A DNA stretch of 64,000 bases. Source: an uncultured Tateyamaria sp. (GTDB taxonomy: Bacteria > Pseudomonadota > Alphaproteobacteria > Rhodobacterales > Rhodobacteraceae). The translations under genes and the position numbers were made by a program. The stretch spans positions 62,001 to 126,000 of the forward strand of contig NZ_CANNGP010000003.1 of the NCBI RefSeq assembly GCF_947504105.1, written 5' to 3'. Each line of letters begins with the position of its first letter. Position 1 is the first letter of the stretch. Of this stretch, positions 160 through 16,089 are shown piece by piece. The notes below the pieces were generated by a model. That model did not search any database, was not told the DNA's origin, and saw only the letters and a list, made by a program, of their open reading frames with translations.

Positions 160-2592
160 ATGACCCAAGAAATCATCGTCATAGGTGCTGGCATGGCCTC
201 GGGCCGTACGTTGGAGCACCTGTTTGACGCGGGCGCGGACGTGAATGTCACCCTGTTCAACGCCGAGCCGCGCGGGAACTACAACCGTATCATGCTGTCG
301 CCTGTTCTAGCGGGCGACAAGACGTACGAGGAGATCGTGACGCACGATGCCGATTGGTACGAGGCCAACGGGGTGACCTGCCGCTTTGGCGAACGGGTGG
401 CGTCGGTGGACCGTGCGGCCAAGACTGTCACGGCCGAGAACGGCGACGTGCTGCCCTATGACAAGCTGATATTCGGTACCGGCTCGAACCCCTTCATGAT
501 CCCCCTGCCCGGCCATGATCTGGACGGTGTGATTGCGTATCGCGATCTGGAAGACACCGAGTTGATGATGTCGATGGGGCCGCAGAACAAGGTGGTTGTC
601 ATTGGCGGCGGTCTGTTGGGGCTTGAAGCCGCAGCGGGCATGGCCGCACGCGGTGTGGAGGTGACGGTGGTGCACATTATGGGCCACCTGATGGAGCGTC
701 AACTGGACGAGACGGCAGGGTATCTGCTGCGCAAAGCGTTGGTGGACAAGGGCATCACGGTGCTGTGTCAGGCGAACTCCAAAGAGATCCTTGGCCAAGA
801 CGGCAAGGTATGCGCGCTGCTCTTGGACGATGGGACAGAGTTGCCCTGTGACCTGCTGGTCATGGCGGTGGGTATCCGGCCCAACGTGGCTCTGGCGCAG
901 GACGCTGGATTGGCCGTCGGCAAGGGCATTCATGTGGACGACCAGATGGTGACGTCTGATAAAGACATCCTCGCCGTTGGCGAATGTGTCGAACACAACG
1001 GCGCGATCTTTGGTCTTGTTGCCCCACTTTACGATCAGGCGAAGGTGGCGGCACAGACGATCCTTGGGGACGAAGCAGCATTTGTTCAAAAGGAGCTGAG
1101 CACGAAGCTGAAGGTCACCGGGTGTGATCTGTTCTCTGCCGGGGACTTTGCAGATGGCGAGGGACGCGAGGACATTGTGTTCCGAGACCCAGGGCGCGGC
1201 GTCTATCGAAGGCTTGTGATCGAGGACAATGTGGTTGTCGGCACCGTCATGTATGGCGACACCGCCGACAGCAATTGGTTCTTTGGCCTGATCCGCGACA
1301 AGACCGACATCGCCGACATGCGCGATACGGTCATATTCGGCCCTGCCTATCAGGGGGGTGCCCCCGTGGACCCTTTAGCAGCCGTTGCAGCCTTACCGCG
1401 TGATGCGGAAATCTGTGGCTGCAACGGCATTTGCAAAGGCACCATTGTGGACGCGATTGAGGGTGGGGCAACCGACCTGACCGCCGTGCGCGCTGTCACG
1501 AAGGCGTCCGGGTCCTGCGGGACCTGCACCGGGTTGGTGGAACAGGTTCTGGCTGTGACGCTGGGCGACGATTTCGTTCTGCCCGGTGCACAGCCGATTT
1601 GTGGTTGCACCGACATGACGCACGAAGACGTGCGGCGCATGATCAAGTCTCAGGAACTCAAGTCCATGGCCGCCGTCTGGCAGGAATGCGCGTGGAAGAC
1701 GGTGGACGGATGCCATGTGTGCCGCCCCGCCCTGAACTACTACCTGATTGCCGATTGGCCGCTGGAATATCTGGACGACCCGCAAAGTCGTTTCATCAAC
1801 GAACGCAAGCACGCGAACATCCAGAAGGATGGAACATTTTCAGTGGTGCCGCGCATGTGGGGTGGGATCACCACGCCGGATGAGCTGCGCGCGATTGCCG
1901 ATGCCGCCGACAAATACGACGTGCCGACCGTGAAAGTAACGGGCGGGCAGCGCATCGACCTGTTGGGCGTGAAAGGTGAGGACCTGCCGAGCATCTGGGC
2001 CGATCTGAATGACGCCGGGATGGTGTCGGGACATGCCTATTCCAAAGGGCTGCGCACGGTCAAAACGTGCGTGGGCACCGATCACTGCCGCTTCGGGACG
2101 CAGGATTCGACGGGCCTTGGCATCAAACTGGAGAAGGCGCTGTGGGGGTCCTGGACCCCGCACAAGCTGAAGCTGGGTGTGTCGGGCTGCCCGCGCAACT
2201 GTGCGGAAGCGACCTGCAAGGACATCGGGATTGTCTGTGTCGACAGCGGCTTTCAGATCGGCATCGGCGGGGCAGCAGGCATGGATGTGCGCGAGGTCGA
2301 GCGGCTGATCGATGTCGAGACCGAAGAGGAAACCATCATCGCAATCAAGGCGATGACGCAGCTGTATCGTGAAAACGCCAAGTACCTCGACCGCATCTAC
2401 AAATGGATGAACAAGGTGGGGCTGGAGTGGATACGCGAGCGTATTGCAGACCCAGCAGAGCGCGCCACTTTGGCCACGCGCTTCGATCTGTCCCAGACTG
2501 TGTACCAGAAAGACCCCTGGGCCGAGCATGCACAGAAAAAGGCAGCGATTTATCGGCCTGTTGCAAACCTGAGCCTGGAGGCAGCGGAATGA
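160..2592 (+). CDS. nirB: Assimilatory nitrite reductase [NAD(P)H], large subunit
   Basis: This 810-residue protein reduces nitrite to ammonium in the cytoplasm, using FAD, [2Fe-2S], [4Fe-4S] and siroheme. An N-terminal FAD motif GAGMASG is followed by an NAD-binding GGGLLGLEAA near residue 146. Cys-rich BFD-like iron-sulphur motifs come next (CGCNGICKG near 417 and a following CGTC; then ICGC). The C-terminal siroheme/Fe4S4 half carries CVGTDHCRFGTQ near 636 and SGCPRNCAEATCKD near 676. Length and domain order match NirB. The start is the ATG after a GGAG and an A/G-rich stretch; an in-frame GTG three codons upstream is possible. The stop overlaps nirD (ATGA), indicating translational coupling. 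Confidence 0.96.
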   Translation: MTQEIIVIGAGMASGRTLEHLFDAGADVNVTLFNAEPRGNYNRIMLSPVLAGDKTYEEIVTHDADWYEANGVTCRFGERVASVDRAAKTVTAENGDVLPYDKLIFGTGSNPFMIPLPGHDLDGVIAYRDLEDTELMMSMGPQNKVVVIGGGLLGLEAAAGMAARGVEVTVVHIMGHLMERQLDETAGYLLRKALVDKGITVLCQANSKEILGQDGKVCALLLDDGTELPCDLLVMAVGIRPNVALAQDAGLAVGKGIHVDDQMVTSDKDILAVGECVEHNGAIFGLVAPLYDQAKVAAQTILGDEAAFVQKELSTKLKVTGCDLFSAGDFADGEGREDIVFRDPGRGVYRRLVIEDNVVVGTVMYGDTADSNWFFGLIRDKTDIADMRDTVIFGPAYQGGAPVDPLAAVAALPRDAEICGCNGICKGTIVDAIEGGATDLTAVRAVTKASGSCGTCTGLVEQVLAVTLGDDFVLPGAQPICGCTDMTHEDVRRMIKSQELKSMAAVWQECAWKTVDGCHVCRPALNYYLIADWPLEYLDDPQSRFINERKHANIQKDGTFSVVPRMWGGITTPDELRAIADAADKYDVPTVKVTGGQRIDLLGVKGEDLPSIWADLNDAGMVSGHAYSKGLRTVKTCVGTDHCRFGTQDSTGLGIKLEKALWGSWTPHKLKLGVSGCPRNCAEATCKDIGIVCVDSGFQIGIGGAAGMDVREVERLIDVETEEETIIAIKAMTQLYRENAKYLDRIYKWMNKVGLEWIRERIADPAERATLATRFDLSQTVYQKDPWAEHAQKKAAIYRPVANLSLEAAE

Positions 2593-2924
2593 CCGACTGG
2601 ATTGACATTGCATCTATCGATGACATTCCGCAGCGTGGTGCCCGCGTGGTCAAGACGCGGGCAGGCTGTGTGGCTGTGTTTCGGACGGCAGCGGACGAGG
2701 TCTTTGCTCTCGACAACGCGTGCCCACACAAGCAGGGGCCGCTGGTCGAGGGGATCGTGCATGGCAGCGCCGTGACCTGCCCGCTGCACAACTGGGTGAT
2801 CTCGCTTGAGACCGGGTTGGTGCAGGGCAATGATGAAGGTCAGGTTGCGACCTATCCAGCACGGGTCGAGGGTGGGCGCGTCCTGTTGGACACAACGTTC
2901 CTGCAAGCCCGGTCAGCGGCATGA
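2589..2924 (+). CDS. nirD: Nitrite reductase small subunit (Rieske-like)
   Basis: This 111-residue protein of the NirD/Rieske ferredoxin-like family is the small partner of NirB. It has CPHKQGPL and CPLHNW, the canonical Rieske-type CxH...CxxH arrangement, so it may bind a [2Fe-2S] cluster; the enterobacterial NirD lacks these ligands. The ATG overlaps the nirB stop by 4 bp. Its own stop overlaps the start of the nitrate reductase gene in the same ATGA form, so the three enzymes are probably made at matched levels. Confidence 0.95.
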   Translation: MTDWIDIASIDDIPQRGARVVKTRAGCVAVFRTAADEVFALDNACPHKQGPLVEGIVHGSAVTCPLHNWVISLETGLVQGNDEGQVATYPARVEGGRVLLDTTFLQARSAA

Positions 2925-5521
2925 GCACCTGCACCACCTGCCCATATTGTGGCGTAGGGTGCGGGATCATTGCATCGCCAGATGGCAGCATCAAGGGTGA
3001 TCCGACGCATCCCGCAAACCTCGGGCAGCTGTGTTCCAAGGGCTCGGCCCTGGGAGAGACCATTGATCTTGAGGGACGTTTGCTGACGCCCATGGTCGAT
3101 GGGGTCGAGACGGATTGGGACGAGGCGACCGCCCTGGTTGCACACAAGTTCTCTGAGGCCGTTCGGGATCATGGGCCGGACTCGGTCGCGTTTTATGTGT
3201 CGGGTCAATTGCTGACCGAGGACTACTACGTCGCTAACAAGCTGATGAAAGGGTTCATCGGGTCCGGGAATATCGATACGAATTCACGGCTGTGCATGGC
3301 GTCATCGGTGGCGGGCCACAAACGTGCCTTTGGTGCGGATACGGTTCCGGGGACCTATGAAGATCTGGAAGAGGCCGACCTGATCGTGCTGGTGGGCTCG
3401 AACCTAGCGTGGTGTCATCCGGTCCTGCATCAGCGCATTGCCGCCACGAAAGAAGCGCGGCCCGAAATGCGGATCGTCAATATTGATCCGCGCCGCACCG
3501 CGACCTCTCAGTTGGCTGATCTGCATCTGAGCATTGCGCCTGATGGCGATGTGGCCCTGTTCAATGGGCTCTTGGCGCATTTGAGTGCCTCCAGTCGTGT
3601 GAACCACGATTATGTCGACGCGCATGTATCTGGTTTCGGCGCTGCAGTGGCAGCGGCAGAGTGCACGGACCATGCTGCCAGCGGACTTTCGCCTGATGAT
3701 CTGGCTGTGTTCTATTCGATGTGGGCGGGGACCGAGAAGGTCGTGACTGTCTATTCCCAAGGGGTGAACCAATCAGCCTGCGGGACGGACAAGGTCAATG
3801 CCATCCTGAACTGCTACCTTGCCACGGGCCGCATTGGCCGTCCGGGCATGGGACCGTTTTCGGTCACCGGCCAGCCCAACGCCATGGGAGGGCGCGAGGT
3901 GGGCGGGCTTGCCAACATGCTGGCCAACCATCTGGATATCGAAAATCCCGATCACCGCAACGCCGTACAGGAGTTCTGGTCTAGCCCCACAATGTGCACA
4001 GGGCCCGGGCTGAAAGCCGTTGATCTGTTTCAGGCCTGCGCCGATGGGCGCATCAAGGCCCTGTGGGTGATGTCGACCAACCCCGCCGTCAGCCTGCCCG
4101 ATGCCCAAGGCATAGCCGACGCCATTGCCAACGTCCCCTTCACTGTTGTGTCTGACATCATGGCCCGCACAGATACGGGCGATCTGGCCGACGTATTGCT
4201 GCCCGCCGCCGCATGGGGTGAAAAAAGCGGAACCGTCACCAACTCGGAACGCCGCATTTCGCGTCAGCGACCATTCCTGCCCGTGCCGGGACAGGCGCGG
4301 CCTGATTGGCAAATCATCTGCGATGTGGCGCGGGCGATGGGCTGGGGGGCGGCTTTTGATCATGACTCGGCGGCTTCAATTTTCAGGGAATATGCTCTGC
4401 TGTCTGTCGCGACGCGCCAGTTCGGGCGGGACTTTGATATCAGTGGCCTCGCCAACCTGACGGATGCCGAATACGACGCGTTCGCACCCGTTCAATGGCC
4501 TGTGCCCGCAACGGGCAAGGGCCCGCGTCGCTTCTTTGCCGATGGGGGGTTCTTTCACCCGGACGGCAAGGCACGCATGTTGCCCTTGACCGCTCCGGCC
4601 CCTCATCAAGACGGTAGGTTCCACCTGAACACGGGCCGCAATCGCGATCAGTGGCACACGATGACACGCACGGGCAAGTCGCCCCGGCTGGGTGCACATC
4701 TGGCGGAACCCTATGTCGAAATTCACCCTGATGATGCCCAAAAGGTGGGGCTGGGTACTGCGGAGCTGTGCGTTCTGAGCGATGGGCACAACACGACCAT
4801 CCTGCGTACTCTGCCCACGGATCGCGTTGCGCGCGGCACTCTCTTTGCCCCGATGCACTGGACACGGCAAATGTCAGCCAGCGGGCCGGTAAACGCCGTT
4901 GTTCAGGCCGGCACCGATCCGGTATCCGGCCAACCCGCCCTGAAGTTCGGCCGCGTGAGCGCACAGCGCTTTGCCGCCCGCTGGTACGGGTTTGCAACTT
5001 CTGCGACAGAGATGCATCTGCACGGCGACTATTGCGCAATCGCCCGGACCGAGACGGGATGGCAGGCCGAGCTAGCAGGCCTGACAGATCTCGAAGACCC
5101 GCAAACCATGCTGTCGCAGCTTGTCGGACCACTTGCCGGGTCCATCAGTGTGGTGAGTGACGGCGCGACCGGGATGCAGCGCGTGGCCCATCACAAGGAT
5201 GGGCGCCTGACTGCCCTGCTGTTCCTTGCGCCTGAACCTGTACAACTCTCGCGCCCCCACGCTGTCGCAGCCATCGGGCAAGCAAGCCCCGCCGGGGCTG
5301 CCTTAGCCGGGCGTGCAGCGGGTTCCCAAGTGGATCCCGGCCCCACGGTCTGCGCCTGCATGAGCGTCGGTTTGAATGATCTGAAACGCGCCATCGCCGA
5401 TGGTGCGACAAGTGTCGACGCGCTGGGGCAATGCACCGGCGCAGGTACGAACTGCGGCGCTTGCAAGCCCGAGCTTGCTGCCTTGCTGCCAGCCCATCCC
5501 ACCGCCGTTGCAGCGGAATAG
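2921..5521 (+). CDS. nasA: Assimilatory nitrate reductase, catalytic subunit
   Basis: This 866-residue molybdopterin oxidoreductase reduces nitrate to nitrite in the cytoplasm, feeding NirBD. The N-terminus has the [4Fe-4S] motif CPYCGVGCG near residue 7 and a further Cys in LCSKG. The body follows the bis-MGD nitrate reductase pattern (SRLCMASSV, MGGREVGGLANML, NTGRNRDQWHTMTRTG). Near residues 806-855 there is a C-terminal BFD-like [2Fe-2S] domain with CACM and NCGACKPEL, as in Klebsiella-type NasA. No separate flavoprotein subunit is encoded next to it, so the electron donor is not shown by the window. It overlaps nirD by 4 bp and is followed 10 bp later by the siroheme synthase gene. Confidence 0.95.
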   Translation: MSTCTTCPYCGVGCGIIASPDGSIKGDPTHPANLGQLCSKGSALGETIDLEGRLLTPMVDGVETDWDEATALVAHKFSEAVRDHGPDSVAFYVSGQLLTEDYYVANKLMKGFIGSGNIDTNSRLCMASSVAGHKRAFGADTVPGTYEDLEEADLIVLVGSNLAWCHPVLHQRIAATKEARPEMRIVNIDPRRTATSQLADLHLSIAPDGDVALFNGLLAHLSASSRVNHDYVDAHVSGFGAAVAAAECTDHAASGLSPDDLAVFYSMWAGTEKVVTVYSQGVNQSACGTDKVNAILNCYLATGRIGRPGMGPFSVTGQPNAMGGREVGGLANMLANHLDIENPDHRNAVQEFWSSPTMCTGPGLKAVDLFQACADGRIKALWVMSTNPAVSLPDAQGIADAIANVPFTVVSDIMARTDTGDLADVLLPAAAWGEKSGTVTNSERRISRQRPFLPVPGQARPDWQIICDVARAMGWGAAFDHDSAASIFREYALLSVATRQFGRDFDISGLANLTDAEYDAFAPVQWPVPATGKGPRRFFADGGFFHPDGKARMLPLTAPAPHQDGRFHLNTGRNRDQWHTMTRTGKSPRLGAHLAEPYVEIHPDDAQKVGLGTAELCVLSDGHNTTILRTLPTDRVARGTLFAPMHWTRQMSASGPVNAVVQAGTDPVSGQPALKFGRVSAQRFAARWYGFATSATEMHLHGDYCAIARTETGWQAELAGLTDLEDPQTMLSQLVGPLAGSISVVSDGATGMQRVAHHKDGRLTALLFLAPEPVQLSRPHAVAAIGQASPAGAALAGRAAGSQVDPGPTVCACMSVGLNDLKRAIADGATSVDALGQCTGAGTNCGACKPELAALLPAHPTAVAAE

Positions 5522-5531
5522 GAGGATTGCG

Positions 5532-6929
5532 ATGAAAACCTTTCCCATGTTCCTGACCATGACAGGCCGACGGGTGGTCATCCTTGGTGGCGGCGAGCAG
5601 GCCACCCAGAAATGCCGCCTGATGCTCAAGACCGAAGCCGCGATTGAAGTCTTCGCCCCTGCTTTGGACGTCGAGCTGCAATCGCTGGTCGATACTGGCC
5701 GGATCACCCATCGGATGGACCGGATCACTGCGGATGCGCTGCGCGGTGCACCACTTGTATTTGTCGGCACAGGCTGCCCGGGCATCGACGCGGCACTGCA
5801 CGCCGTCGCCACGGACGCAGGCGGGCTGGTGAACGTGGTGGACCAACCCGATCTGTGTGACGCGATCACACCCGCCATCGTGGATCGGGATCCGGTTGTG
5901 GTGGCCATAGGCACCGAAGGCACGGCACCGGTGCTGGCGCGACAGATCAAGACTGCGCTTGAACGCATGCTGGATCCGCGTTTGGGCGATATGGCTGCAT
6001 TGGCCGGACGTTTGCGAGACTTTGCGGCCCAGCGTCTTGCACCCCGGCAACGGCGCGATCTGTGGCGCTGGGTTTTCAACGGCCCATTGCGGGCCCGGCA
6101 TGCGCGTGAGGGGGATGCGCCTGTTGCCCGCGCAATCAAGGACGTCATTCGCACCGGCACAGTGCCCGCCGCCGCCCCTTCTCCGGTCGCGCTGGTTGGC
6201 GCAGGACCGGGTGCCACTGACCTGATCACGATGCGCGGTGTGCAGCGGTTGCAAGAGGCGGACATCATCTTTTACGACCGGCTGGTCGATCCGGGTGTGC
6301 TGGAATTGGCCCGCCGCGATGCCGAACGTGTGTTCGTGGGCAAGGAACCCGGTTGCCACGCCTGGCCACAGGACAAGATCAACGCGGTCATCGTCGCCGC
6401 CGCCAAGCGCGGTCAGCGCGTTGTGCGTCTGAAATGCGGTGATCCGGGTGTGTTTGCCCGCGGCGCGGAAGAGGCGGACGCCTTGCGTGCCGCAGAGCTT
6501 GAATGCGAGGTTGTACCGGGCGTGACTGCAGCCAGCGGAGCCGCCGCAGCCGTCGGTGGGTTCCTGACAGAGCGGGGCAAGAGCGACACGCTGGTTCTGA
6601 CCACGGGCCGCTGTGCCGATGGCAATGGCACGCCGGATTGGGTCACGCATCTGACCCAGCGCAGCAATGTCGCCGTCTATATGGGCGTTGCAGCAGCCCC
6701 CAAGATCGCCGAATGCCTTCGGCGCGCAAACCTGCTGGATCAGGTGCAAGTGACGGCCGTGAGCAACGCCCAGCGCGCGGAGCAAAAAGTCTTGCACTGT
6801 GGCGGTCGGGATATGGTGTCTGAACTGACACGGGCAGGCATCGAAAGCCCGGCCATATTGTTTCTGTCACGTCCCGACGCCGTCGAAAGGGAACTCCGGA
6901 TCCCCGCCCCCAGACTTGTGGCCGTGTGA
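5532..6929 (+). CDS. cysG: Siroheme synthase (multifunctional CysG type)
   Basis: This 465-residue bifunctional enzyme makes siroheme, the prosthetic group of NirB. Residues 1-210 form the precorrin-2 dehydrogenase/ferrochelatase domain, with GGGEQATQK as its nucleotide-binding loop. Residues 215-460 form the uroporphyrinogen-III C-methyltransferase domain, with VGAGPGATDLITMRG, the CGDPGVFARG loop and VPGVTAASG. The start ATG follows AGGAGG 5 bp upstream. A longer frame reading back into nasA was rejected. As the last gene of the nitrate operon it couples cofactor supply to reductase expression. Confidence 0.95.
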   Translation: MKTFPMFLTMTGRRVVILGGGEQATQKCRLMLKTEAAIEVFAPALDVELQSLVDTGRITHRMDRITADALRGAPLVFVGTGCPGIDAALHAVATDAGGLVNVVDQPDLCDAITPAIVDRDPVVVAIGTEGTAPVLARQIKTALERMLDPRLGDMAALAGRLRDFAAQRLAPRQRRDLWRWVFNGPLRARHAREGDAPVARAIKDVIRTGTVPAAAPSPVALVGAGPGATDLITMRGVQRLQEADIIFYDRLVDPGVLELARRDAERVFVGKEPGCHAWPQDKINAVIVAAAKRGQRVVRLKCGDPGVFARGAEEADALRAAELECEVVPGVTAASGAAAAVGGFLTERGKSDTLVLTTGRCADGNGTPDWVTHLTQRSNVAVYMGVAAAPKIAECLRRANLLDQVQVTAVSNAQRAEQKVLHCGGRDMVSELTRAGIESPAILFLSRPDAVERELRIPAPRLVAV

Positions 6930-6991
6930 CGCTGCTTCAGATCGCCATGGACGCAAGAACTTCCAGTCACAGGACCAATGGCAGATCTTAC

Positions 6992-7558
6992 CTATGCACG
7001 CTGCTTTCCGGCGCCAACGCGCGCCCTGCGGCGGGAACTCAGGGCGCGGACAAGTGCCTTGGCTTCGGCGGGCGGTTCCTGCTCAATCCTGCGGTAGTTC
7101 GTTCCATCCGGTTCTCGGCTCAGCAAGCCACATGAAACCATGGTTCGTCGCAGTGTCGCGGGGTCTTCAAACAGGTGTTCCTCTTTCAGATGCGCATTCA
7201 CCGCGCGCTCGTCCCATGTCTGATTGGCAGGCAACGTGACCCACAACCCCCAAAGCGCCAGGGTCTGCGTGGCACGTTTGGACGGCCAACGAAGGAGCCG
7301 CCCCATATCATCGAATTGATGCAATGCGCGTTTGATCGCGCGGGCATCGATAGGCGTATTTTCGGATTGATTGTCCAGCCGCTTTGCCGCCGCGGACACC
7401 GCACGCAAATGCTGAACGTTCTGAAAGCCGGCAGACCGGGCGACCATGTTCATCAATGTCAGATGTTTGGGACTTTTGTCCCCCAGTTGTCGGGATAGCG
7501 CGCGTGTGAATGTGGTCACATCGTCCACACGCAATGGGACAGGTGTTTTGGTCATCAT
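6992..7558 (-). CDS. DUF2087 domain protein
   Basis: This 188-residue basic protein ends tail to tail with cysG. Its C-terminal half has the DUF2087 signature: ALWGLWVTLP, an E.AVNAHLKEEHLFEDPATLRR stretch, and GLLSREPDG.NYRR. DUF2087 proteins resemble small winged-helix DNA-binding modules and are often annotated as ArsR-like regulators. The N-terminal half (FTRALSRQLGD, HLTLMNMVARSAGFQN) resembles a short helical DNA-binding segment. No neighbour suggests a target. The last ~20 residues are Arg-rich. It begins with two successive ATG codons, either of which could be used. Confidence 0.75.
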   Translation of the reverse strand: MMTKTPVPLRVDDVTTFTRALSRQLGDKSPKHLTLMNMVARSAGFQNVQHLRAVSAAAKRLDNQSENTPIDARAIKRALHQFDDMGRLLRWPSKRATQTLALWGLWVTLPANQTWDERAVNAHLKEEHLFEDPATLRRTMVSCGLLSREPDGTNYRRIEQEPPAEAKALVRALSSRRRARVGAGKQRA

Positions 7559-7952
7559 GCATCCAAGTCGGGCGTTTGCTCACTCGTCGGTCGCTGGCTT
7601 AACGAAACACGCCCTACTTCATGCGATTTCGTTTGGTTTATTGGCAGGTTTAGCACTCAGGTAAGAGCAGCGACGCCTCGGTGTCTGCCGACCGTGGGTG
7701 AGAGCTATCAAATGCCCGCGATTTTGCCAAGCCATGCCTGTCCTGCATTTGCAGGTGCTTCTTTGACGATGTGAACAGCTGGCGGATCTGGGATGCTGCA
7801 AACCGACCGCACACCAACGATGCTCCCATCATAGCCATTGCTCACGAGGTCAGGTTCAACTCGCGCGCATCCTTCCACACGACGTTCAAGCGCGTTTGGC
7901 GCGCGCCCGCCATAACATCAGGCCAAGGCGTCGGGGACACCTCAATCCCGAT
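7559..7952. other. Intergenic stretch with a decayed regulator remnant
   Basis: Nothing coding is convincing here except the AraC-like relic described separately. The stretch lies between the divergently oriented ends of the DUF2087 gene and the MATE gene. Confidence 0.6.
7756..7911 (+). pseudogene. Remnant of an AraC-family regulator (C-terminal HTH)
   Basis: In one + frame the translation FFDDVNSWRI, AAN, then IIAIAHEVRFNSRASFHTTF and KRV follows the second helix-turn-helix of AraC-family regulators (typically F.DFVN.WRI...A...L..I..I..EVGFNS.ASFN.AFKR). No N-terminal domain or start precedes it, the G of EVGF is replaced by R, and the reading continues only to a stop at 7954-7956. I infer a degraded gene copy. 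The match is short, so confidence is moderate. Confidence 0.5.
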
Positions 7953-9323
7953 CTAGGGCACCACCGCCGCGTCCTTGTTCACATCCCAAAACCGCAGTCG
8001 GAACAGGACCGTCGTAACCGCCAAACCCGCGGCAGCCGCAGCACAGATTGTGCCCCAAAGCAGCAACAGATTACCCGGTGCATGAACGTGCAGGATGAAC
8101 AGTAATGGGAACTCGATAACACCGTAGCTGACCAGCCCCGCGGCAAGGATGGGCCAGGTCACGCCGGATCCCTCGAACACGCCGTTCAACGCATAGGTAA
8201 CCATGAAAAGGCAGTTCGTCAGCAACATGACGCGGATGTAAAGCGCGGCGGTCTCCGCGGTTTCCGGTGTCTTGGTAAAGGTGGACAGCACAGCCGCCAG
8301 CCAAAGGGGGGCGCTGGCCCAGATCAACAACCCAAGCACCAATAGGCCAAGGCACAGCTTTTGTGTGCCGCTGCGGATCGCCTCGGCAGCGGCCTGCGAC
8401 GTTCCGGCAGCGCCCAGGACCCGACCCGCACCGATGCCCACGCCGACCGTGATGCCAAGGTTGATAATGAACACAAAGCCAAAGATACGCGCACCGATGC
8501 CAAAGCCATCGCTGACAGCGACAGGATAATCCAGCACGAGGTTTGCAAGCACGAGGTTTTCTAAACTGTAGACCACCATCATGGCGCCGATGGGCAAACC
8601 GATCAGGACAAGTTTGCGATAAAGGGCAGGCTGCCAGGCAAGGGCAGCGCGGCGCAAGACATCCAGGGCCGGGCGCTGTTTCACAAGCACGGCCAATGAT
8701 AGGGCCAACGCCAAGACTTGCGACAGGATCGTCGCCCATGCGGCTCCGGCAATCCCAAAACCCTGCATGTCACCATAGCCAAGCACCAAGAGCGGCGTAG
8801 CGACCGCATTGACTGCAAGGATCATGACCGAAATCGCGGCCGCCGTAACCTCCAGCCCCACGGTCCGCAGCACGGTCATGATGGTCGAATAAACGGGTAC
8901 CAGAATGAGGGAGGGCCAGATCACCCAAGCATAGTCCAGCGTCAGTTGTCGCAGGGCACCGTCCAGGCCTTGCCACCAGACGGTGGTCGCAAGCACAGCA
9001 CCGAACAGGGCAACCATGGCAATGCCAAGAACGAATTTCACGACCAGACAATTCAGGATCAAGGCACCGGTCTCGACGTCATCGCCCCGTCCCACCGATT
9101 GCGAGAACAGAGAAACGGTGCTGACGCCAACAATCTCGTTCAGCGCCAGAACAGCAAACAGGATGACAGAGACCAGCGTGATCGCCGTCGGGGCCGCAGC
9201 GCCCAATTGCGCAACCCAGAACATGTCGATCAGCTGAAAAGAATAGTCGACCGCGTAGCTGATCGCCGCAAAGAAGGAAATACGCCTGACCATGTGCAGG
9301 TAATTGGGGTGATCCGCGGTCAT
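7953..9323 (-). CDS. MATE-family multidrug/metabolite efflux transporter
   Basis: This 456-residue, very hydrophobic protein has about 12 predicted membrane segments in two homologous halves. The first helices have the MATE-like pattern (IDMFWVAQLGAAAPTAITLV, VGVSTVSLFSQSVGRGD) and the second half has a matching NLGITVGVGIGAGRVLGA. MATE proteins exchange Na+ or H+ for small organic molecules across the inner membrane. It is the last gene of the overlapping 13500-to-7953 operon, its ATG overlapping the upstream methyltransferase stop by 4 bp. It is therefore most likely the exporter for whatever the four upstream enzymes make. Confidence 0.9.
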   Translation of the reverse strand: MTADHPNYLHMVRRISFFAAISYAVDYSFQLIDMFWVAQLGAAAPTAITLVSVILFAVLALNEIVGVSTVSLFSQSVGRGDDVETGALILNCLVVKFVLGIAMVALFGAVLATTVWWQGLDGALRQLTLDYAWVIWPSLILVPVYSTIMTVLRTVGLEVTAAAISVMILAVNAVATPLLVLGYGDMQGFGIAGAAWATILSQVLALALSLAVLVKQRPALDVLRRAALAWQPALYRKLVLIGLPIGAMMVVYSLENLVLANLVLDYPVAVSDGFGIGARIFGFVFIINLGITVGVGIGAGRVLGAAGTSQAAAEAIRSGTQKLCLGLLVLGLLIWASAPLWLAAVLSTFTKTPETAETAALYIRVMLLTNCLFMVTYALNGVFEGSGVTWPILAAGLVSYGVIEFPLLFILHVHAPGNLLLLWGTICAAAAAGLAVTTVLFRLRFWDVNKDAAVVP

Positions 9324-10225
9324 GCTGTCACCCTTTCCGGGGCGGCGCTGTCACACAGGAAACCAACCCGCCCATCGCCGGTCATCTGGAAACGATAGCG
9401 CTGGCCCGCCCGCACCGGGATTGGTGTCTCAAGCGGGTGATAGGCCGGAGGCCACAGGCTGCCCTCGCGCCGATTACACAGCAGCACCTGGCCATAATGC
9501 GCTTCGAACCATGTCAGAAGGCCGTCGCAGGGGCCGTCCCGGGTGGCGACCACGTCAATGATGCGATCTTCGAGACAGTCGCGGCTGGTGAAGTCGTAGC
9601 GGCGGCACAGGACCCGCGGCGACAATTGTTGCGCCGCGCTTTCATTGACCACCGGGACATATCCGCGCCCATTCATCCGGTTCAGGCAGGACAGATCGAA
9701 CCCGCACGAGGTGTCAAACCGGCAGGTTGCACGCGACGCAGGATCATGCACCATCACTCCGCTTTGAAACACGGCTTCGGGCAGAACCCGTGTCATGGGC
9801 CCACGCAAGGCCGCGATGTCATCAAACAGCTCCAACCCACCTTCGTTGAACACGCCGCAGTCCAGCGCATCGGCAAAAAGGATATCCGCACCTTCCGGCA
9901 GATCGCCATCAACCTGGGCTTGCGCCACAGGCTTGCTGATCACCGTAATTACGCCCTCAAAACCGTTGCTGCGGATCAGCTGGCGGGCATAGCGCACAGC
10001 CTGCGGATCTAAGATCAGGGTAAAGACCCGCATGGCGCCGTATTTGGCAAAACGCATGGCGTTGACGCCAACCCCGCCCCGTAGATCGATCACCGTCTTG
10101 GCCAACAGGTCCAAAGAGGCAATGCAGCTTTCAAGGGCGTGGTCGCGCACCGGATCGCGCAGGTCCGCGATGGCGGGCATCTCTCTAGCCAGGAGCGCGG
10201 GAATGGTCAGAACGGGCGCATTCAT
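9320..10225 (-). CDS. PRMT-like SAM-dependent methyltransferase
   Basis: This 301-residue class I methyltransferase has its SAM-binding motif in degenerate form (VIDLRGGVGVNAMRFAKYGA, with R where most have GxG), then an acidic LILDP. It continues with features of protein arginine methyltransferases: an ADALDCGVFNEGGLELFDDI stretch resembling the PRMT double-E loop, LPEAVFQSGVMVHDP, and FDLSCLNRMNGRGY. The C-terminal part looks like the PRMT beta-barrel. The start ATG follows AAAGGAC; a longer frame to 10369 was rejected because the shorter start overlaps the ligase stop (ATGA). A guanidino or other small-molecule N-methyltransferase is possible. The substrate is unknown. Confidence 0.72.
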   Translation of the reverse strand: MNAPVLTIPALLAREMPAIADLRDPVRDHALESCIASLDLLAKTVIDLRGGVGVNAMRFAKYGAMRVFTLILDPQAVRYARQLIRSNGFEGVITVISKPVAQAQVDGDLPEGADILFADALDCGVFNEGGLELFDDIAALRGPMTRVLPEAVFQSGVMVHDPASRATCRFDTSCGFDLSCLNRMNGRGYVPVVNESAAQQLSPRVLCRRYDFTSRDCLEDRIIDVVATRDGPCDGLLTWFEAHYGQVLLCNRREGSLWPPAYHPLETPIPVRAGQRYRFQMTGDGRVGFLCDSAAPERVTA

Positions 10226-11538
10226 GTGTGATGTCCTTTCAGGCTGGCGTCGTCGCGGATGTCCACAACAGCGCGCGGTTTCTGCTTGGACCCGGTCAGG
10301 TGCGTCGGCAGCGCACCAGACACTTGGAGGTCGACAATGCGACCACGCGCGTACAGTGATCCAAGACATGGGTCCCGGAGCAGCGTGTCGCGGGCAGATC
10401 GCGCCCGGTCCGGGTCAGCAAAGGCACAGGCGTGAGCCGTCAACACATCACCTCCGCCCGCATCCCGGGACACGACGAATTGCACCAACTCACCATTGGG
10501 CACCATCCGCGCGCCCAGATCACCGAGAGCCCGGGCTGATGTCTTTTCCCCGCCAATCTTCAGTAAACGCGCAGCCCGACCCAGCAACCTGATCCGGCGC
10601 GAGGTGCGCCCGCAATCACAGCGCTCTGCATGGCTGGTCCAAGCGGCGCGGTCGCCTGTTTTCATGCGGATCACGGGCATTTCACGCCGATAGAGATTGG
10701 TGACAACCATCTCTCCCTCCGCGGCGGCTTGCCCGCTTTCATCAAGCAACTCGACCAGTTGCAATTCTTCGTGCAGGTGGAATTCGCCGTCCGCGCAATG
10801 GGTACATTGATACCCGATTGTGCCCGCATCAGCGGTCTGGAACGTCCCCCGCACTTTCAGTTCGGGACCAAAAAGCCGCTGCAGTCTTGCGCGCACGGGG
10901 GCAGGCAGAGGCTCTCCCCCGGTGACAACCAGACGCAAGGCCGGGACGGTCTCTGGCGCTGTCTCCCAATGATCGAGATAACCCAACAACTCCGACGGCA
11001 TCGCCAGAAGGGCGTCCACGTTCAGCTCCTGAAACAGTGCGACATTGGCGGTGATGTCCAGACGATCGACAAGGGGCACAATTGTGCAGCCCGTCATGTC
11101 GAGGGCAGCAATCACCGCAAATTCCGAAGCAAAGCGTCCGACTTCTCCAAAGGTGGCGAGCGTATGGTCGGACCCAACGCCACAGGCGGCATAGCCCTTG
11201 CCGTGGATCCGGGCGTTGTTGATGATTTCCTGGTACGAGGTCACAAGCCGCCGTTCGGTCCCGGAACTGCCACTGGTTGAGAACACGATGCACGCGCCGG
11301 GGTCGCGGCTGGGACGGTTGGCGTAGGGACCAATGCCGCAAATGGCGCCGCTGTGATCCTCGGACTCCCCCGGTGTGATGTTGTGCAGGGCAAGCGGACC
11401 GGTGATCCTCTCTGCGACAAGAGGGTGACCGCCACATTCAGCCAACAGGCGGGCCAAAGCAGTTTCCTGATACCGCTCCCGCTCGGCCCGGGGCAGCATG
11501 TCACAATCCACCGGATTTGCATAGACCCGGTTCAGCAT
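10222..11538 (-). CDS. PaaK-like adenylate-forming ligase
   Basis: This 438-residue enzyme belongs to the phenylacetate-CoA-ligase-like branch of the ANL superfamily. The ATP-binding P-loop is FSTSGSSGTERR near residue 80, followed by VVTGGEPLP, a TADAGTIGY motif (the Y/GxTE-like substrate and AMP region), KTGDRA, a Cys-rich CTHC/CDCG pair that could bind zinc, RLLGRAARLLKIGGEKTSA, and a small C-terminal domain. It should activate a carboxylic acid as an adenylate, then transfer it to CoA or directly to an amine. No acyl carrier protein is encoded nearby. It overlaps both neighbours (7 bp and 4 bp). Confidence 0.78.
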   Translation of the reverse strand: MLNRVYANPVDCDMLPRAERERYQETALARLLAECGGHPLVAERITGPLALHNITPGESEDHSGAICGIGPYANRPSRDPGACIVFSTSGSSGTERRLVTSYQEIINNARIHGKGYAACGVGSDHTLATFGEVGRFASEFAVIAALDMTGCTIVPLVDRLDITANVALFQELNVDALLAMPSELLGYLDHWETAPETVPALRLVVTGGEPLPAPVRARLQRLFGPELKVRGTFQTADAGTIGYQCTHCADGEFHLHEELQLVELLDESGQAAAEGEMVVTNLYRREMPVIRMKTGDRAAWTSHAERCDCGRTSRRIRLLGRAARLLKIGGEKTSARALGDLGARMVPNGELVQFVVSRDAGGGDVLTAHACAFADPDRARSARDTLLRDPCLGSLYARGRIVDLQVSGALPTHLTGSKQKPRAVVDIRDDASLKGHHT

Positions 11539-12935
11539 GAGACGGCCTCCACCTTCGCCTCTTGCTGCACGACAAGTACCGGAACCTCGCACCCGCCATT
11601 GCCCACGTTGAACACCTTGTTCACGTGGGCGCGGCTGACACAGCCCGCAAAGCTGTCTCCAAAAAAGAACCAGTCGGCACCAAAGAACTCCTCGCCCGCG
11701 TTTCCGGACCGGGCACGACGGGGTGTGGCCACAGCGCGCTGAATGACACCGTTGCGCGGGGCATAGTCCGCAAGCAAAGCGGCCCAATCGTCGGCCCCAT
11801 GCGCATCCCCCAACTCAACACCGATCCCACGCGTGGTGGCATCTTCCTTGAGCACCCAGGCCGCGCGATCAGCAACAGCCTTGGCCCGAAGCGCCGGCGC
11901 CAAATCCCGCACCCGGCGGGTGGACAGAACACAGGTCTCCACGGCCGCCCGTTCCTCCACGGTGAGACCGGCATGGGCGGCAATGGCCGGATCACTGAGC
12001 GCCGCGAACATGCTCTTGGCCTCGCCGATATACATCGCGCCAAAGCTGTTCAGAAACGTGCAGTGTTTCGAATGGCTGGCCGCGCGCCACGCGGTGGTAT
12101 CCGGGTCTTGGGGGTCAATTTCCAGCGGATCAAGCTTGTTGTAGATCAGGTCGACCCGCCGCCCGTTCAGGTGAATCTCGTCCCCGACTTGCTCAAGCGC
12201 GCGAATATCGGCGGTACTGATGGTGAGGGCGCCCTGCCCCGCCGCGCGGTCAATCGCAGCACGACGTACCAAACTGTCCAACTCGTTGGTATACGTGCCA
12301 TCATAGTTGCAGATCACGGCATGACGGTCGCCATCCGGTGCCTTGATCACGCCCTCCAGAAACCGGACAAACCCCGAGGCATCGTCGATGGCACGCTCCA
12401 CGATTGGCACAGCTTCAGTCAGGCCAGCACCAAGATCGCTGTCCTGCCAGGCCGCGCGCAGATAAGCGCAATGAATGACCCCACCTGGGCAGGCCGCATT
12501 TGGTTCCATCGCCTGCCATCCTGTTTCACGGTCAAACGCCGTGTCGAAACGCATCAACATGACATCGGGCAGCCGACGCTCCTCCGCGGCGATCAGGTCG
12601 AACCACTTGCTGTATCCACCAAAAAAGCGGGTCAGCACCGTATCGGCGTTGCTGCGGATATCAGCGCGGGTCCTGACAATGATCCGGTTGATGCCTGCGC
12701 GCACCAGCCGCAGGTTTTGCGCCGTGGCTGCCACCTGTCCTTCGTCCATCACAAGTGGGCGCAGCGACATAGGCAGCGCACGGCCTTCAAAGTCGATGCC
12801 ACGGTCAGCCATATAGGCCCGGATTGACTTTTCTGTTCGGTCCAGAACGTCGCGCGATGTTTCGTGGACCAAGCGCGCCTGAACGGCATGCTCCAAAGCG
12901 GCAAAGCAATTGTCGGTTTCAATACGATCAAACAT
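11532..12935 (-). CDS. Circularly permuted ATP-grasp-like enzyme (putative amide/peptide ligase)
   Basis: This 467-residue protein has the linear order of circularly permuted ATP-grasp (DUF407-like) and glutathionylspermidine-synthase-like families: LMRFDTAFD, then EPNAACPGG (substrate region), VDLIYNKLDPLEID, NSFGAMYIGEAKSMFAALSD, WVLKEDATTRGIGVELG (ATP-binding Lys), GVIQRAV, and a C-terminal KVFNVGNGGCEVPVLVV. Such enzymes form amide bonds through acylphosphate intermediates. The match is by motif order only, and the true family could be an undescribed branch. It lies between the acetyltransferase (8-bp overlap) and the adenylating ligase (7-bp overlap), so two different carboxylate-activating enzymes are co-translated. 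Confidence 0.6.
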   Translation of the reverse strand: MFDRIETDNCFAALEHAVQARLVHETSRDVLDRTEKSIRAYMADRGIDFEGRALPMSLRPLVMDEGQVAATAQNLRLVRAGINRIIVRTRADIRSNADTVLTRFFGGYSKWFDLIAAEERRLPDVMLMRFDTAFDRETGWQAMEPNAACPGGVIHCAYLRAAWQDSDLGAGLTEAVPIVERAIDDASGFVRFLEGVIKAPDGDRHAVICNYDGTYTNELDSLVRRAAIDRAAGQGALTISTADIRALEQVGDEIHLNGRRVDLIYNKLDPLEIDPQDPDTTAWRAASHSKHCTFLNSFGAMYIGEAKSMFAALSDPAIAAHAGLTVEERAAVETCVLSTRRVRDLAPALRAKAVADRAAWVLKEDATTRGIGVELGDAHGADDWAALLADYAPRNGVIQRAVATPRRARSGNAGEEFFGADWFFFGDSFAGCVSRAHVNKVFNVGNGGCEVPVLVVQQEAKVEAVSC

Positions 12936-13500
12936 GGCAAACTCCTTGAAATGGGCTGGTCACACTTAGCGGCAGTTGTTCGGACGCAAGCGTCTTGAGG
13001 CCGCTCAGCTTGCCTGTGTCCGCACGCAGGCTGCGCAAAGGGTGGCGGGCCTGCACGTCGGGGCGCATGTCGTAACCATGGCGCTGATAGAGCCGGATCG
13101 CCCGCACCTGATGCGCCGACGTCGTAAGCGAGAGACGCTGCGCGCCCAATGCGCGAGCCTTCTCCTCGGCACGGGCCAGCATCCATTGGGCCAGACCTGT
13201 GCCTTGAACACGCGGGGTCACGTACAGCCTGCGAAGCTGCATCGTGGTGCGGGTTTCCGGCTCAAGCCCAAACATGCCCACCACGTCGCTGCCTTGTTCC
13301 ACCATCCAGATGCGTCCGCCGCGCTCTGCGAAACTGTCACCCAAGCGGTCAATCTCGCCCGATCGGGCGCGGCGCATATAGGTATCAAAATGCGCCGCCG
13401 TATCGGCGCTGCGGTAATCGGCATTTCCAGCTTCAAACAGGGCAATCGCGTGATCGCGATCCGTGTCCCGATAGGCACGTATTTGGCGGTCAAAACTCAT
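12928..13500 (-). CDS. GNAT-family N-acetyltransferase
   Basis: This 190-residue GNAT protein has its acetyl-CoA-binding motif A in LRRLYVTPRVQGTGLAQWML (near 88-108, R/Q-x-x-G-x-G/A), followed by LTTSAHQVRAIRLYQRHGY, the usual motif B. The ~40-residue tail after the GNAT core is not part of the family. It is the first gene of the five-gene minus-strand operon and is divergent from the LysR-type gene, so it could acetylate (or otherwise acylate) an amine in the pathway product or give self-protection. The substrate is unknown. Confidence 0.85.
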   Translation of the reverse strand: MSFDRQIRAYRDTDRDHAIALFEAGNADYRSADTAAHFDTYMRRARSGEIDRLGDSFAERGGRIWMVEQGSDVVGMFGLEPETRTTMQLRRLYVTPRVQGTGLAQWMLARAEEKARALGAQRLSLTTSAHQVRAIRLYQRHGYDMRPDVQARHPLRSLRADTGKLSGLKTLASEQLPLSVTSPFQGVCHV

Positions 13501-13581: not shown

Positions 13582-13596
13582 CTAAGGCAACCTTAG
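13582..13596. promoter_or_regulatory. Perfect LysR-type palindrome (T-N11-A)
   Basis: CTAAGGCAACCTTAG is a perfect 6-3-6 dyad. Its outer bases give the T-N11-A spacing of LysR-regulator recognition sites. It lies between the divergent GNAT-operon start (13500) and the LysR-type start (13666), the classical place for autoregulation and control of the divergent operon. Confidence 0.7.
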
Positions 13597-13665: not shown

Positions 13666-14562
13666 ATGTTTGATTACAAACTGCTGAATGCCCTCTGGGC
13701 AGTTGTCCGCGAAGGCAGCTTCGAAGGGGCGGCCGTACGGCTCAGCATCACGGCTTCCGCGGTATCCCAGCGGGTAAAACTGTTGGAAAGCCGCGTCGGC
13801 CAGGTCCTTGTGGTCCGTTCCAAGCCCTGTGAGGCGACGCCGATGGGGTACCGTCTCTTTGCGCATATGGAACAGGTCAAGCTGCTTGAACAGGATGTGA
13901 AATCGGACTTTCAAACATCAGGACTTGTTGTGGGCCGTGCACCCGTGGTGCTGCGCGTGGGGGTCAGCGGCGACAGTATGAACACTTGGTTCAATCGGGT
14001 GATTGCGGAATTCTGCACAGATGAAGAGGTCCTAATCCACATCCTGCGTGACGACCGCGAATATACGACAGAGGCCTTGAAACGTGGCGAAGCAATCGCC
14101 ACCGTCACACCGCGCGACCGCATGCTGGATGGATTGAAATCACTGCCGTTGGGCCGCTTGGAGTACAGCGCTGTCGTCAGCCCGGGCTTTCATGCAGATG
14201 CTTTTCCGGAAGGTGTGACGCTTGCCAGCCTATCCGCTGTGCGGGGCATTGCCTTTGATGAAAAGGACAGCTTGCCAGACCTCTGGATCAAGCACGTATT
14301 CGGGGGCCCAACGACAATTGCGACCCACCGGGTGCCGTCATTTGCCGGCTATATCAACGCCTGTCGTGCCGGGATTGGTTGGGGCATAGCACCCAGCCTG
14401 TCAGTCCAAGGCGACATTGCTGCTGGCCGCCTCGTGGAACTGTTTCCAGAGGATCAGATGGCAACCGAACTGGTCTGGCAATACAGCGCGATCTCTTCCG
14501 ACATCCTCAAGCGTCTGACACGAAAGGTGCAGCAGGTCGCACGGGAAATTCTGGTACGCTAG
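13666..14562 (+). CDS. LysR-type regulator, ArgP/LysG (IciA) subfamily
   Basis: This 298-residue protein has an N-terminal winged HTH: DYKLLNALWAVVREGSFEGA, then RLSITASAVSQRVKLLE. The closing pattern VVRSKPCEATPMGYRL...HMEQVKLLEQD is characteristic of ArgP/LysG, which in other bacteria sense lysine or arginine and control the LysE/ArgO exporter. Here the divergent partner is a biosynthetic/export operon rather than lysE. The ATG at 13666 gives the family N-terminus MFDYK; a longer upstream frame from 13603 would cover part of the intergenic control region and was rejected. Confidence 0.88.
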   Translation: MFDYKLLNALWAVVREGSFEGAAVRLSITASAVSQRVKLLESRVGQVLVVRSKPCEATPMGYRLFAHMEQVKLLEQDVKSDFQTSGLVVGRAPVVLRVGVSGDSMNTWFNRVIAEFCTDEEVLIHILRDDREYTTEALKRGEAIATVTPRDRMLDGLKSLPLGRLEYSAVVSPGFHADAFPEGVTLASLSAVRGIAFDEKDSLPDLWIKHVFGGPTTIATHRVPSFAGYINACRAGIGWGIAPSLSVQGDIAAGRLVELFPEDQMATELVWQYSAISSDILKRLTRKVQQVAREILVR

Positions 14563-14577
14563 GTGCGCTTCGGACGA

Positions 14578-16089
14578 TTACGCGAAAGTCGTCGCGAACT
14601 GATCCCGCAGCGCTTTCTTCTGCACCTTACCCATCGTATTGCGCGGAAGTTCGGGCAGCAGCACCAGTTTCTGCGGCTGCTTGAACCGCGCAAGCGACGT
14701 TCCAATTGCGGTCGAAATGGCGTCAAGATCGGGCTGCTGGTCCGGCATGGCCACCAGGACGCCGACAACGCTTTCTCCGAAATCGGGATGCGGCACGCCG
14801 ATGACCGCGCTTTCAAGAACGCCGTCCTGTTCATCCAGCAGCAATTCAATCTCCTTAGGGTAGATGTTGTACCCGCCCGAGATGATCAGATCCTTGTTTC
14901 GGCCCACGATGGTGACATAGCCATCTGCATCCACAACGCCCAGATCACCGGTGATAAAGAACCCGTCCGCCCGCAGTTCCTCCGCGGTCTTTTCCGGCAT
15001 CTGCCAATAGCCCTGGAACACGTTTGGGCCTCGCACCTCGATCTCTCCGATCTGTCCTGGCGGAAGGGGTGCGCCGGTTTTCGGGTCGGTAATCTTCAGT
15101 TCCACCCCCGGCAACGGGAGACCAACAGTCCCCGCACGCCGCTCCCCGTCATAGGGGTTCGAGGTGTTCATGTTGGTTTCGGTCATGCCGTAGCGTTCAA
15201 GGATGCGATGCCCAGTGCGCGCTTTGAACTGAACGTGGGTCTCTGCCAGAAGCGGGGCACTGCCCGATACAAAAAGGCGCATATGCGCCGTGAGCGCCTT
15301 GGTGAAACGCGCATCCCCGAGAAGGCGAGTATAAAACGTGGGGACCCCCATCATGGTTGTCGCGCCCGGCAAATGCGCGATCATCTGGTCCAGATCGAAC
15401 TTGGGTAAAAAGATCATCCGCCCGCCCGACAACAACGTCACATTGGTTGCAACAAATAGTCCATGCGTATGGAAGATCGGCAAGGCATGCAGCAGCACAT
15501 CTTGGGACGTGAAACACCATTCCTGCTTCAAGGTCTGCGCGTTGGACAACAGGTTGGCCTGGCTCAGCATCGCCCCTTTTGAACGCCCCGTTGTTCCCGA
15601 TGTGTAGAGGAAGGCAGCCAGGTCGTCCTTGTCGCGATGCACCGTCTCGAACGTCGTTGGAAAGCGTGCCGCCTTGTCGGCAAACGATCCCGAGCCATCG
15701 GCATTCAGGGTGTCCAGACGGGCGCTGCACCGGTCTGCGATGGCAGCCAATTCGACCCGCTTACTGTCATCGCCCAGCACGCACCCCGCGCCACTATTTT
15801 CAATAAAATAGGCAACTTCGTCCGGCGTGTAGGCCGTATTGAGCGGCAGAAAAACCAACCCGGCTTGCGCACATGCCGCATACACGGCCAACGCTTCGGT
15901 GGACTTGGCGATTTGGACGGCAACGCGATCCCCCGGCGCAAGCCCCATATCCGTCAACAAACCAGCATATTGGGCCGCCGTTTCTAGGAAGGACCGGTAC
16001 GTGACCGCGTCACCGCCAGGCAGTTGCAGGAACACGGCATCACTCTGAAGATGCTGACCAAACAGCGTATCGTAAAGAGGATTGGGCAT
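14578..16089 (-). CDS. matB: Malonyl-CoA synthetase
   Basis: This 503-residue ANL-superfamily enzyme converts malonate, ATP and CoA to malonyl-CoA. The P-loop is YTSGTTGRSKGAM near residue 160; the others are LPIFHTHGLF, ERYGMTETNMNTSNPYDGER, TGDLGVVD, GRNKDLIISGGYNIYPKEIE and a C-terminal acylation Lys in NTMGKVQKKALR. The ERYGMTET followed by MNTSNPY is a recognisable MatB pattern. It is the last gene of the malonate operon, 11 bp after the decarboxylase, and ends convergent to the ArgP-type gene. Confidence 0.92.
   Translation of the reverse strand: MPNPLYDTLFGQHLQSDAVFLQLPGGDAVTYRSFLETAAQYAGLLTDMGLAPGDRVAVQIAKSTEALAVYAACAQAGLVFLPLNTAYTPDEVAYFIENSGAGCVLGDDSKRVELAAIADRCSARLDTLNADGSGSFADKAARFPTTFETVHRDKDDLAAFLYTSGTTGRSKGAMLSQANLLSNAQTLKQEWCFTSQDVLLHALPIFHTHGLFVATNVTLLSGGRMIFLPKFDLDQMIAHLPGATTMMGVPTFYTRLLGDARFTKALTAHMRLFVSGSAPLLAETHVQFKARTGHRILERYGMTETNMNTSNPYDGERRAGTVGLPLPGVELKITDPKTGAPLPPGQIGEIEVRGPNVFQGYWQMPEKTAEELRADGFFITGDLGVVDADGYVTIVGRNKDLIISGGYNIYPKEIELLLDEQDGVLESAVIGVPHPDFGESVVGVLVAMPDQQPDLDAISTAIGTSLARFKQPQKLVLLPELPRNTMGKVQKKALRDQFATTFA

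Follow-up and report, generated by a model that had tools for sequence, protein, structure and literature searches.

The operon and its regulator

In a 64,000-nucleotide stretch of DNA from an uncultured Tateyamaria sp. (host genome, 4.76 Mb; contig NZ_CANNGP010000003.1, positions 62,001 to 126,000), hereafter called the window, five overlapping genes lie on the minus strand, facing a divergent regulator gene. They encode an acetyltransferase, an ATP-grasp-like ligase (GRASP), an adenylating ligase (ANL), a protein with the fold of arginine methyltransferases (PRMTs) and an exporter, a set which a sequence-only reading of this DNA had taken for a carrier-free biosynthetic operon. The features of the unit are the following:

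12928-13500, minus: GNAT-family N-acetyltransferase, 190 residues, first gene of the operon (PF00583, E 2e-17)
11532-12935, minus: GRASP, glutathionylspermidine-synthase-like ATP-grasp ligase, 467 residues, overlapping the GNAT gene by 8 bp
10222-11538, minus: ANL, PaaK-like adenylating ligase, 438 residues, overlapping GRASP by 7 bp
9320-10225, minus: PRMT-fold protein, probable pseudo-methyltransferase, 301 residues, overlapping ANL by 4 bp
7953-9323, minus: MATE-family exporter, 456 residues, overlapping the PRMT-like gene by 4 bp (PF01554, E 1.6e-17)
13666-14562, plus: divergent ArgP/LysG-type LysR regulator (ATG at 13666 chosen; mechanical open reading frame from 13603)
13582-13596, no strand: perfect inverted repeat CTAAGGcaaCCTTAG, holding T-N11-A, a possible LysR box

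All five frames are intact, and the gene order with its overlaps of 8, 7, 4 and 4 bp is as the sequence-only reading described it. Profiles and predicted folds likewise agree with the five families that it had named, and its call of an ArgP-type regulator is confirmed by TIGR03298 (310.5 bits, cut-off 273.55). Profiling against Pfam and NCBIfam covered nine proteins between 6992 and 17423, with longer mechanical frames used for ANL and the PRMT-like gene. The best NCBIfam equivalog of the GNAT protein reaches 36.3 bits against a cut-off of 125, and the MATE protein scores 143.9 bits with TIGR00797, slightly below its cut-off of 147.4. Since no close homologue was found for a substitution-rate test, GC content by codon position was compared across 15 genes instead, and in this respect the five operon genes resemble the other window genes.

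In the 165-bp divergent intergenic region, CTAAGGcaaCCTTAG is the sole perfect repeat with 6-bp arms (spacer 0-9). The window holds 16 repeats of its spacer-3 type, where chance would give 15.6, and CTAAGGcaaCCTTAG is thus a possible, statistically weak candidate for the regulator's site. Scans for consensus promoters and terminators gave no excess over chance.

An ATP-grasp ligase paired with a rare adenylating ligase

GRASP falls below the gathering cut-off of the Pfam family GSP_synth (PF03738; E 0.19, 11.3 against 29.3 bits) and has no NCBIfam match at E<=1. Its AlphaFold2 model (pLDDT 86.6, pTM 0.89) matches the putative glutathionylspermidine synthase 3n6x and homoglutathione synthetases in Foldseek, and all 15 GRASP rows, that of the window included, share residues R129, D131, E144 and N146. 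GRASP profile A8 finds Cp1B (E 1.1e-6), the ATP-grasp enzyme of the fungal E-64 pathway, which lost all or a significant part of its activity when R139, D141, E163 or N165 was replaced (PMC12568646). When the patterns are equated by eye, the RxD...ExN set of GRASP appears to match these four Cp1B residues.

Relatives of GRASP were found on five of 72,556 plasmid records (one of the matches, H4 from Pantoea, was left out of locus inspection) and in three of 384 other genomes of the class, all of one genus. None of 389 other genomes of the order carries a real homologue, and the gene is absent from the eight same-genus genomes listed. Fifteen GRASP loci came from a scan of 84,980 species restricted to two peptide patterns, and a single-sequence scan of genome contigs with GRASP returned 35 pattern matches, none of them a relative. 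Profile A1, run over 398 genomes of the phylum, gave weak, partial matches in 56 other genomes; short loci from 29 of these held no ANL, GNAT, PRMT-like or MATE match, and a wider neighbourhood was taken for one (L063), which is included in the 22-locus count below. A 65-residue fragment in genome G245 (E 7.8e-4, one stop) was rejected as a GRASP homologue.

ANL scores above the Pfam cut-off for AMP-binding enzymes (33.7 against 29.9 bits, E 2.4e-8). Its best NCBIfam matches are DVU_1553-type and PaaK-type models, and it falls far short of the PaaK equivalog cut-offs (TIGR02155, 44.6 against 646.3 bits; NF041878, 69.8 against 700). Among solved structures, ANL profile A4 matches phenylacetate-CoA ligases best (PaaK 4r1l, E 4.6e-24); AjiA1 (6wuq) is also matched, and NatL2 6siy is listed under 6siw. 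A candidate A10 lysine, equated with it by eye, is present in 3 of 3 ANL rows (K420 in the window).

GRASP and ANL are adjacent in three distant genomes: that of the window, a Sphingopyxis metagenome-assembled genome (L048) and Bradyrhizobium canariense (L056, 8982-13137), the latter two retrieved by GRASP patterns alone. In both, ANL directly follows GRASP. Identities to the window are 39% for GRASP and 38% for ANL in Sphingopyxis, where an MFS exporter gene comes next, and 25% and 33% in Bradyrhizobium, where the pair is directly preceded by a homologue of LuxI-type autoinducer synthases that matches GNAT domain models as well. The window and Sphingopyxis GRASP sequences form one clade in the tree (support 100/100), and the Bradyrhizobium sequence groups with rhizobial ones, in whose loci no ANL was found; the pairing therefore spans two GRASP branches. 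At E<=1e-30, profile A4 found the ANL subfamily in 0 of 198, 0 of 145 and 0 of 132 other genomes, that is, in none of 475 genome tests, the three groups possibly sharing genomes and just part of the first-pass candidates being scored in many of them. The plasmid collection held no ANL match at E 1e-20, and one match of 26% identity when the Bradyrhizobium ANL served as query. Because the pair recurs on two branches while its ANL is very rare, chance association is unlikely. The ANL of this pair belongs to an almost unsampled subfamily, seen so far in three genomes.

The kinship of ANL with phenylacetate-CoA ligases is also what an alternative account would build on, in which ANL is an acyl-coenzyme A (CoA) ligase that feeds the GNAT protein. 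The product would then be an N-acylated, dipeptide-like amide, made by GRASP and then the GNAT protein, the ATP-grasp step and the acyl transfer contributing one amide each. The presence of a GNAT gene in the operon and of the LuxI-like acyl transferase beside the Bradyrhizobium pair are consistent with it; against it stand the large shortfall of ANL from the PaaK cut-offs, the existence of PaaK-related stand-alone ligases, and the Sphingopyxis pair, whose contig, although short, showed no GNAT homologous to that of the window. We regard such an acyl-CoA route as unlikely, while giving it real weight as the main alternative.

A PRMT fold with an altered active site

The AlphaFold2 model of the fourth protein (pLDDT 75.3, pTM 0.73) matches PRMT7, 6 and 3, and its agreement with PRMT7 4m36 (Foldseek E 7.7e-21, TMq 0.74) identifies a PRMT fold; phmmer, too, links the protein directly to PRMTs. 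The genome holds no second PRMT-like copy at E<=1e-3, and in a search of 292 genomes of the order 17 others match, at 26-34% identity. A weak match to the PADLOC model mad2 (E 2.9e-5, residues 42-122) was set aside as a generic methyltransferase match.

When aligned with 19 relatives, the window protein departs at six of 13 motif positions and the relatives at 0 to 3, the 13 positions having been picked by their roles in PRMTs after the alignment had been seen. Position 18 is Ala, where His occurs in 19/19 relatives, and position 21 is Asp, where Met occurs in 18 of 19. Motif I of the S-adenosylmethionine (SAM) site has lost a glycine, with Arg at position 49 in place of the Gly of all 19 relatives, and keeps G51 and G53; the ribose-binding acid after beta-strand 2 is Ile at position 71 (Glu in 18 relatives, Asp in one). 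In the double-E loop, the first Glu (119, invariant in the relatives) is Asp and the second (E128) is kept; by itself, a Glu-to-Asp replacement may be tolerated. The THW loop has Leu at 257, His in 17 of the 19, next to a retained W258, and D24, R27 and D47 are kept as well. Under the genetic code, two or more base substitutions are needed for no fewer than three of the six replacements (18, 21 and 71), and the frame is open, so that sequencing error is an unlikely source of these losses.

These replacements bear directly on the sequence-only reading, which had the protein methylate a guanidino, arginine-derived part of the amide and which would now require SAM to bind in an altered pocket. 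The clear PRMT fold, the retained E128, D24, R27, D47, G51, G53 and W258, and the ArgP type of the regulator fit such a role. The closest relatives of the protein, moreover, adjoin heme-oxygenase-like and ATP-grasp genes in plasmid clusters that resemble the logic of streptozotocin biosynthesis, in which SznE methylates arginine. The window protein also departs at 43 of the 90 columns conserved among the relatives, and its motif losses are no denser than this background, for which reason we weight methylation slightly higher than the losses themselves would suggest; 14 of the 19 relatives, besides, form one closely knit group. Three widely diverged relatives point the other way, having changed at 37/83 (L014), 33/79 (L080) and 32/83 (L079) conserved columns and at 1, 1 and 3 of the 13 motif positions, respectively, with H18, G49, the acid at 71 and E119 all in place; the motif positions were therefore spared in these proteins and not in that of the window. 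With several SAM-site and arginine-site residues replaced, the methylation step does not find support, and SAM-dependent methylation by this protein is unlikely; the pathway as first proposed, with guanidino methylation included, appears improbable.

The protein is probably a pseudo-methyltransferase or a repurposed protein. In the pathway it would more likely serve as a substrate- or partner-binding pseudoenzyme, or as a repurposed enzyme. More tentatively, and with some doubt, the fold may have given up SAM chemistry, kept part of its guanidino pocket and been recruited to the carrier-free pathway of GRASP and ANL as a substrate-holding, partner-forming or newly catalytic part in making a small arginine- or diamino-acid-derived pseudopeptide, sensed through the ArgP-type regulator and exported by the MATE protein. 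A PRMT-fold pseudoenzyme at work in biosynthesis would, if true, be an uncommon instance of a methyltransferase fold put to another use, and would caution against taking fold names for functions in genome mining.

Two plasmid loci carry PRMT-like proteins that keep nearly all motifs: L014 on Methylobacterium indicum plasmid pVL1_1 (295-11953) and L015 on Pantoea dispersa plasmid pAHKW2b.3 (5015-11462). Their neighbours are a heme-oxygenase-like protein, a Rieske protein, an ATP-grasp ligase and an Ada DNA-repair gene; the Haem_oxygenas_2 protein of L014 is supported by Pfam, with a weak cupin match, and its L015 counterpart is annotated as an iron-containing redox enzyme. These loci are candidates for making, from arginine, an N-nitroso or alkylating metabolite, together with self-protection against it.

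A proposed carrier-free pathway

With a slight lean in its favour, we read the locus as an ArgP-regulated operon in which GRASP and ANL carry out carrier-free amide-forming steps and the resulting small amide, a pseudopeptide, is acetylated by the GNAT protein and exported by the MATE protein. GRASP, to judge by its fold and catalytic residues, would phosphorylate a carboxylate and couple it to an amine, most likely that of an amino acid or diamino acid. ANL would adenylate the carboxylate of the GRASP intermediate, or a second acid, and form a second amide bond, again free of a carrier. The GNAT protein may acetylate an amine of either the product or a precursor, the MATE protein would export the product, and the regulator, acting through the divergent intergenic region, could make expression depend on a basic amino acid or on the product itself. 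The reactions of GRASP and ANL, their substrates and the product are plausible predictions from gene order, folds, residue conservation and loss, recurrence of the pair and the synteny break described below. The assembly and export parts of the sequence-only reading are thus plausible in light of the fold and residues of GRASP, the recurring pair and the E-64 precedent; its methylation part does not stand, nor does its view that no such pathway had been described.

Several observations weigh against this biosynthetic reading. ANL might act as a CoA ligase that supplies the GNAT protein, and it departs from standard ANL motifs, with Glu for the P-loop Pro in the window and Asp for the A5 Glu in all three members, as aligned by eye. 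The co-occurrence check proposed with the sequence-only reading, run over 22 GRASP-bearing loci, did not find the five genes together elsewhere: ANL is present in only 2 of the 22, and homologues of the window GNAT, PRMT-like and MATE proteins are present in none (GNAT and MATE, phmmer E<=1e-4; PRMT-like, profile E<=0.01). Several of the 22 loci are near-copies of one another, and the contigs of L055, L058 and L059 are short, that of L059 ending some 0.65 kb beyond GRASP. The count leaves out a weak GNAT match in L009 (E 0.004), and some loci (L009, L010) hold other annotated GNAT, exporter or methyltransferase genes. The five-gene set therefore looks private, and the evidence weighs against a conserved set; such rarity allows for a young or non-functional unit, though all frames are intact. 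Among the literature matches listed for ATP-grasp pathways with PaaK or MATE, none deals with this gene set, which does not prove that no such paper exists.

GNAT, MATE and ArgP-type sensor families are also usual parts of resistance and export systems. The operon, which has all three and no dedicated precursor-making gene, might accordingly detoxify or modify a basic amino-acid analogue through acetylation, export and ArgP sensing, rather than build a secreted metabolite. Detoxification would have no need of two ATP-dependent ligases of pseudopeptide-building classes, and GRASP and ANL recur beside another kind of exporter, with no GNAT homologous to that of the window; we consider this account very improbable.

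If the biosynthetic reading is right, GRASP and ANL constitute a compact bacterial module which may form amides with neither nonribosomal peptide synthetases (NRPSs) nor carrier proteins, and stand-alone amide-forming enzymes are a class already used in biocatalysis.

GRASP relatives in other settings

In several loci, GRASP is joined to the diaminobutyrate aminotransferase EctB. In Photorhabdus (L049, 7955-11374), a 1139-residue frame combines a heme-oxygenase-like domain, EctB and a GRASP domain; in Pseudomonas (L052, 7218-11272), an EctB-GRASP fusion is preceded by a heme-oxygenase-like plus cupin protein; and on a Pantoea plasmid (L009, 7668-10395), EctB lies directly upstream of GRASP, followed by genes annotated as ThiF, TauD, GNAT, CapA, ATP-grasp, PurD, MFS and amidase. 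By eye, the Photorhabdus and Pseudomonas loci resemble the Pantoea one, forming a recurring uncharacterised cluster. The fusion or adjacency of EctB points to diamino-acid substrates in those branches; for the window GRASP, whose operon is without EctB, such a substrate is only hinted at.

Other relatives lie on large Mesorhizobium and Sinorhizobium plasmids (L007/L060, L008 and L010), in one case (L007/L060) near genes for a LuxR-type regulator, EctB, a CapA-family protein and a peptide ABC transporter. In Amycolatopsis thermalba (L051, 6479-7885), a YcaO cyclodehydratase-type protein is encoded upstream of the GRASP relative.

Genomic setting and origin of the unit

Two edges bound the unit:

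7732-7953, no strand: left edge of the insert; a same-genus genome is syntenic up to 7732
14562-14578, no strand: right edge; the regulator abuts a malonyl-CoA synthase gene

To the left of the operon lie genes that, labelled by eye, we take to be those of nitrite and nitrate assimilation and cysG, together with a DUF2087 gene (Pfam). This left block (1377-7732) matches the same-genus genome G1119 at 89% up to position 7732, and the operon begins where this synteny ends; for a second genome, G334, the match is 80% and limited to 914-6856. A piece of 138 bp (7757-7894, 74% identity) matches farther along G1119 and corresponds to the 3' part of a 412-residue open reading frame in L091; it is read here as marking the left edge of the insertion.

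To the right of the regulator, profiles identify malonyl-CoA synthase and malonyl-CoA decarboxylase genes. Both genes are present in all seven same-genus stretches compared (from 19 other same-genus genomes), and neither the regulator nor the operon is present in any of them (matches at E<=1e-8 and >28% identity; one stretch spans just 7.4 kb); the downstream genes at the right edge were compared in five of the seven. Since synteny ends on the left and same-genus stretches lack the operon on the right, the unit represents an insertion or a rearrangement in this lineage. An exact empty site was not found, the left and right flanks lying apart from each other in the relatives, and there is no tRNA gene in the window. 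We read the operon as lineage-specific and probably gained horizontally.

Comparison with known systems

Glutathionylspermidine synthase, YgiC and YjfC share their overall fold with GRASP, which also keeps the R, D, E, N set that has a role in GspS. GRASP differs from glutathionylspermidine synthase in scoring below the GSP_synth cut-off, in having no amidase domain match and in belonging to a biosynthetic-type operon.

The PRMT-fold protein has the fold of PRMTs in common with them and differs in the replaced SAM-site and arginine-site residues. SznE-like proteins are small-molecule arginine methyltransferases. An SznF-like Haem_oxygenas_2 protein, as in the streptozotocin-type N-nitroso pathway, was not found among the nine window proteins profiled, unlike the plasmid relative L014, beside which Haem_oxygenas_2 does occur.

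ClxA and NatL2 are PaaK-related enzymes described as acting as amide or ester ligases (PMC12519233; PMC8388817), and with AjiA1 they offer a likeness to the window ANL as PaaK-like enzymes outside CoA metabolism. They differ from it in serving benzoxazole pathways, the window ANL being a separate subfamily with three members so far.

Bacterial carrier-free pathways with two stand-alone amide-forming enzymes are those to dapdiamide (DdaF, DdaG) and cystargolide (CysC, CysD), as described in PMC12568646. It is this two-enzyme logic that the proposed window pathway would share with them; GRASP itself has no NCBIfam match at E<=1, although that library includes a DdaF model.

The NRPS-independent E-64 pathway of Aspergillus (Cp1A-Cp1D) pairs the ATP-grasp Cp1B with an ANL amide bond synthetase and yields products with amine ends such as agmatine (PMC12568646). 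On that account the likeness comprises a glutathione-synthetase-type ATP-grasp without a detectable Pfam domain, an important R, D, E, N set and an ANL partner, which in the window adjoins GRASP, recurs with it and may be an amide bond synthetase. The differences are the PaaK-like type of the window ANL and the additional GNAT protein, PRMT-like protein, MATE exporter and ArgP-type regulator. Moreover, neither an Fe(II)/alpha-ketoglutarate oxygenase, described as making the epoxysuccinate of E-64, nor a pyridoxal-phosphate-dependent decarboxylase is among the nine proteins profiled, and lacking the epoxysuccinate oxygenase, the window operon is therefore not an E-64 pathway. The sequence-only reading knew of no described pathway with this set, a view that the published ATP-grasp plus ANL logic of E-64, dapdiamide and cystargolide, as reported in that paper, does not bear out: carrier-free assembly by GRASP and ANL is plausible, but as a variant of that logic.

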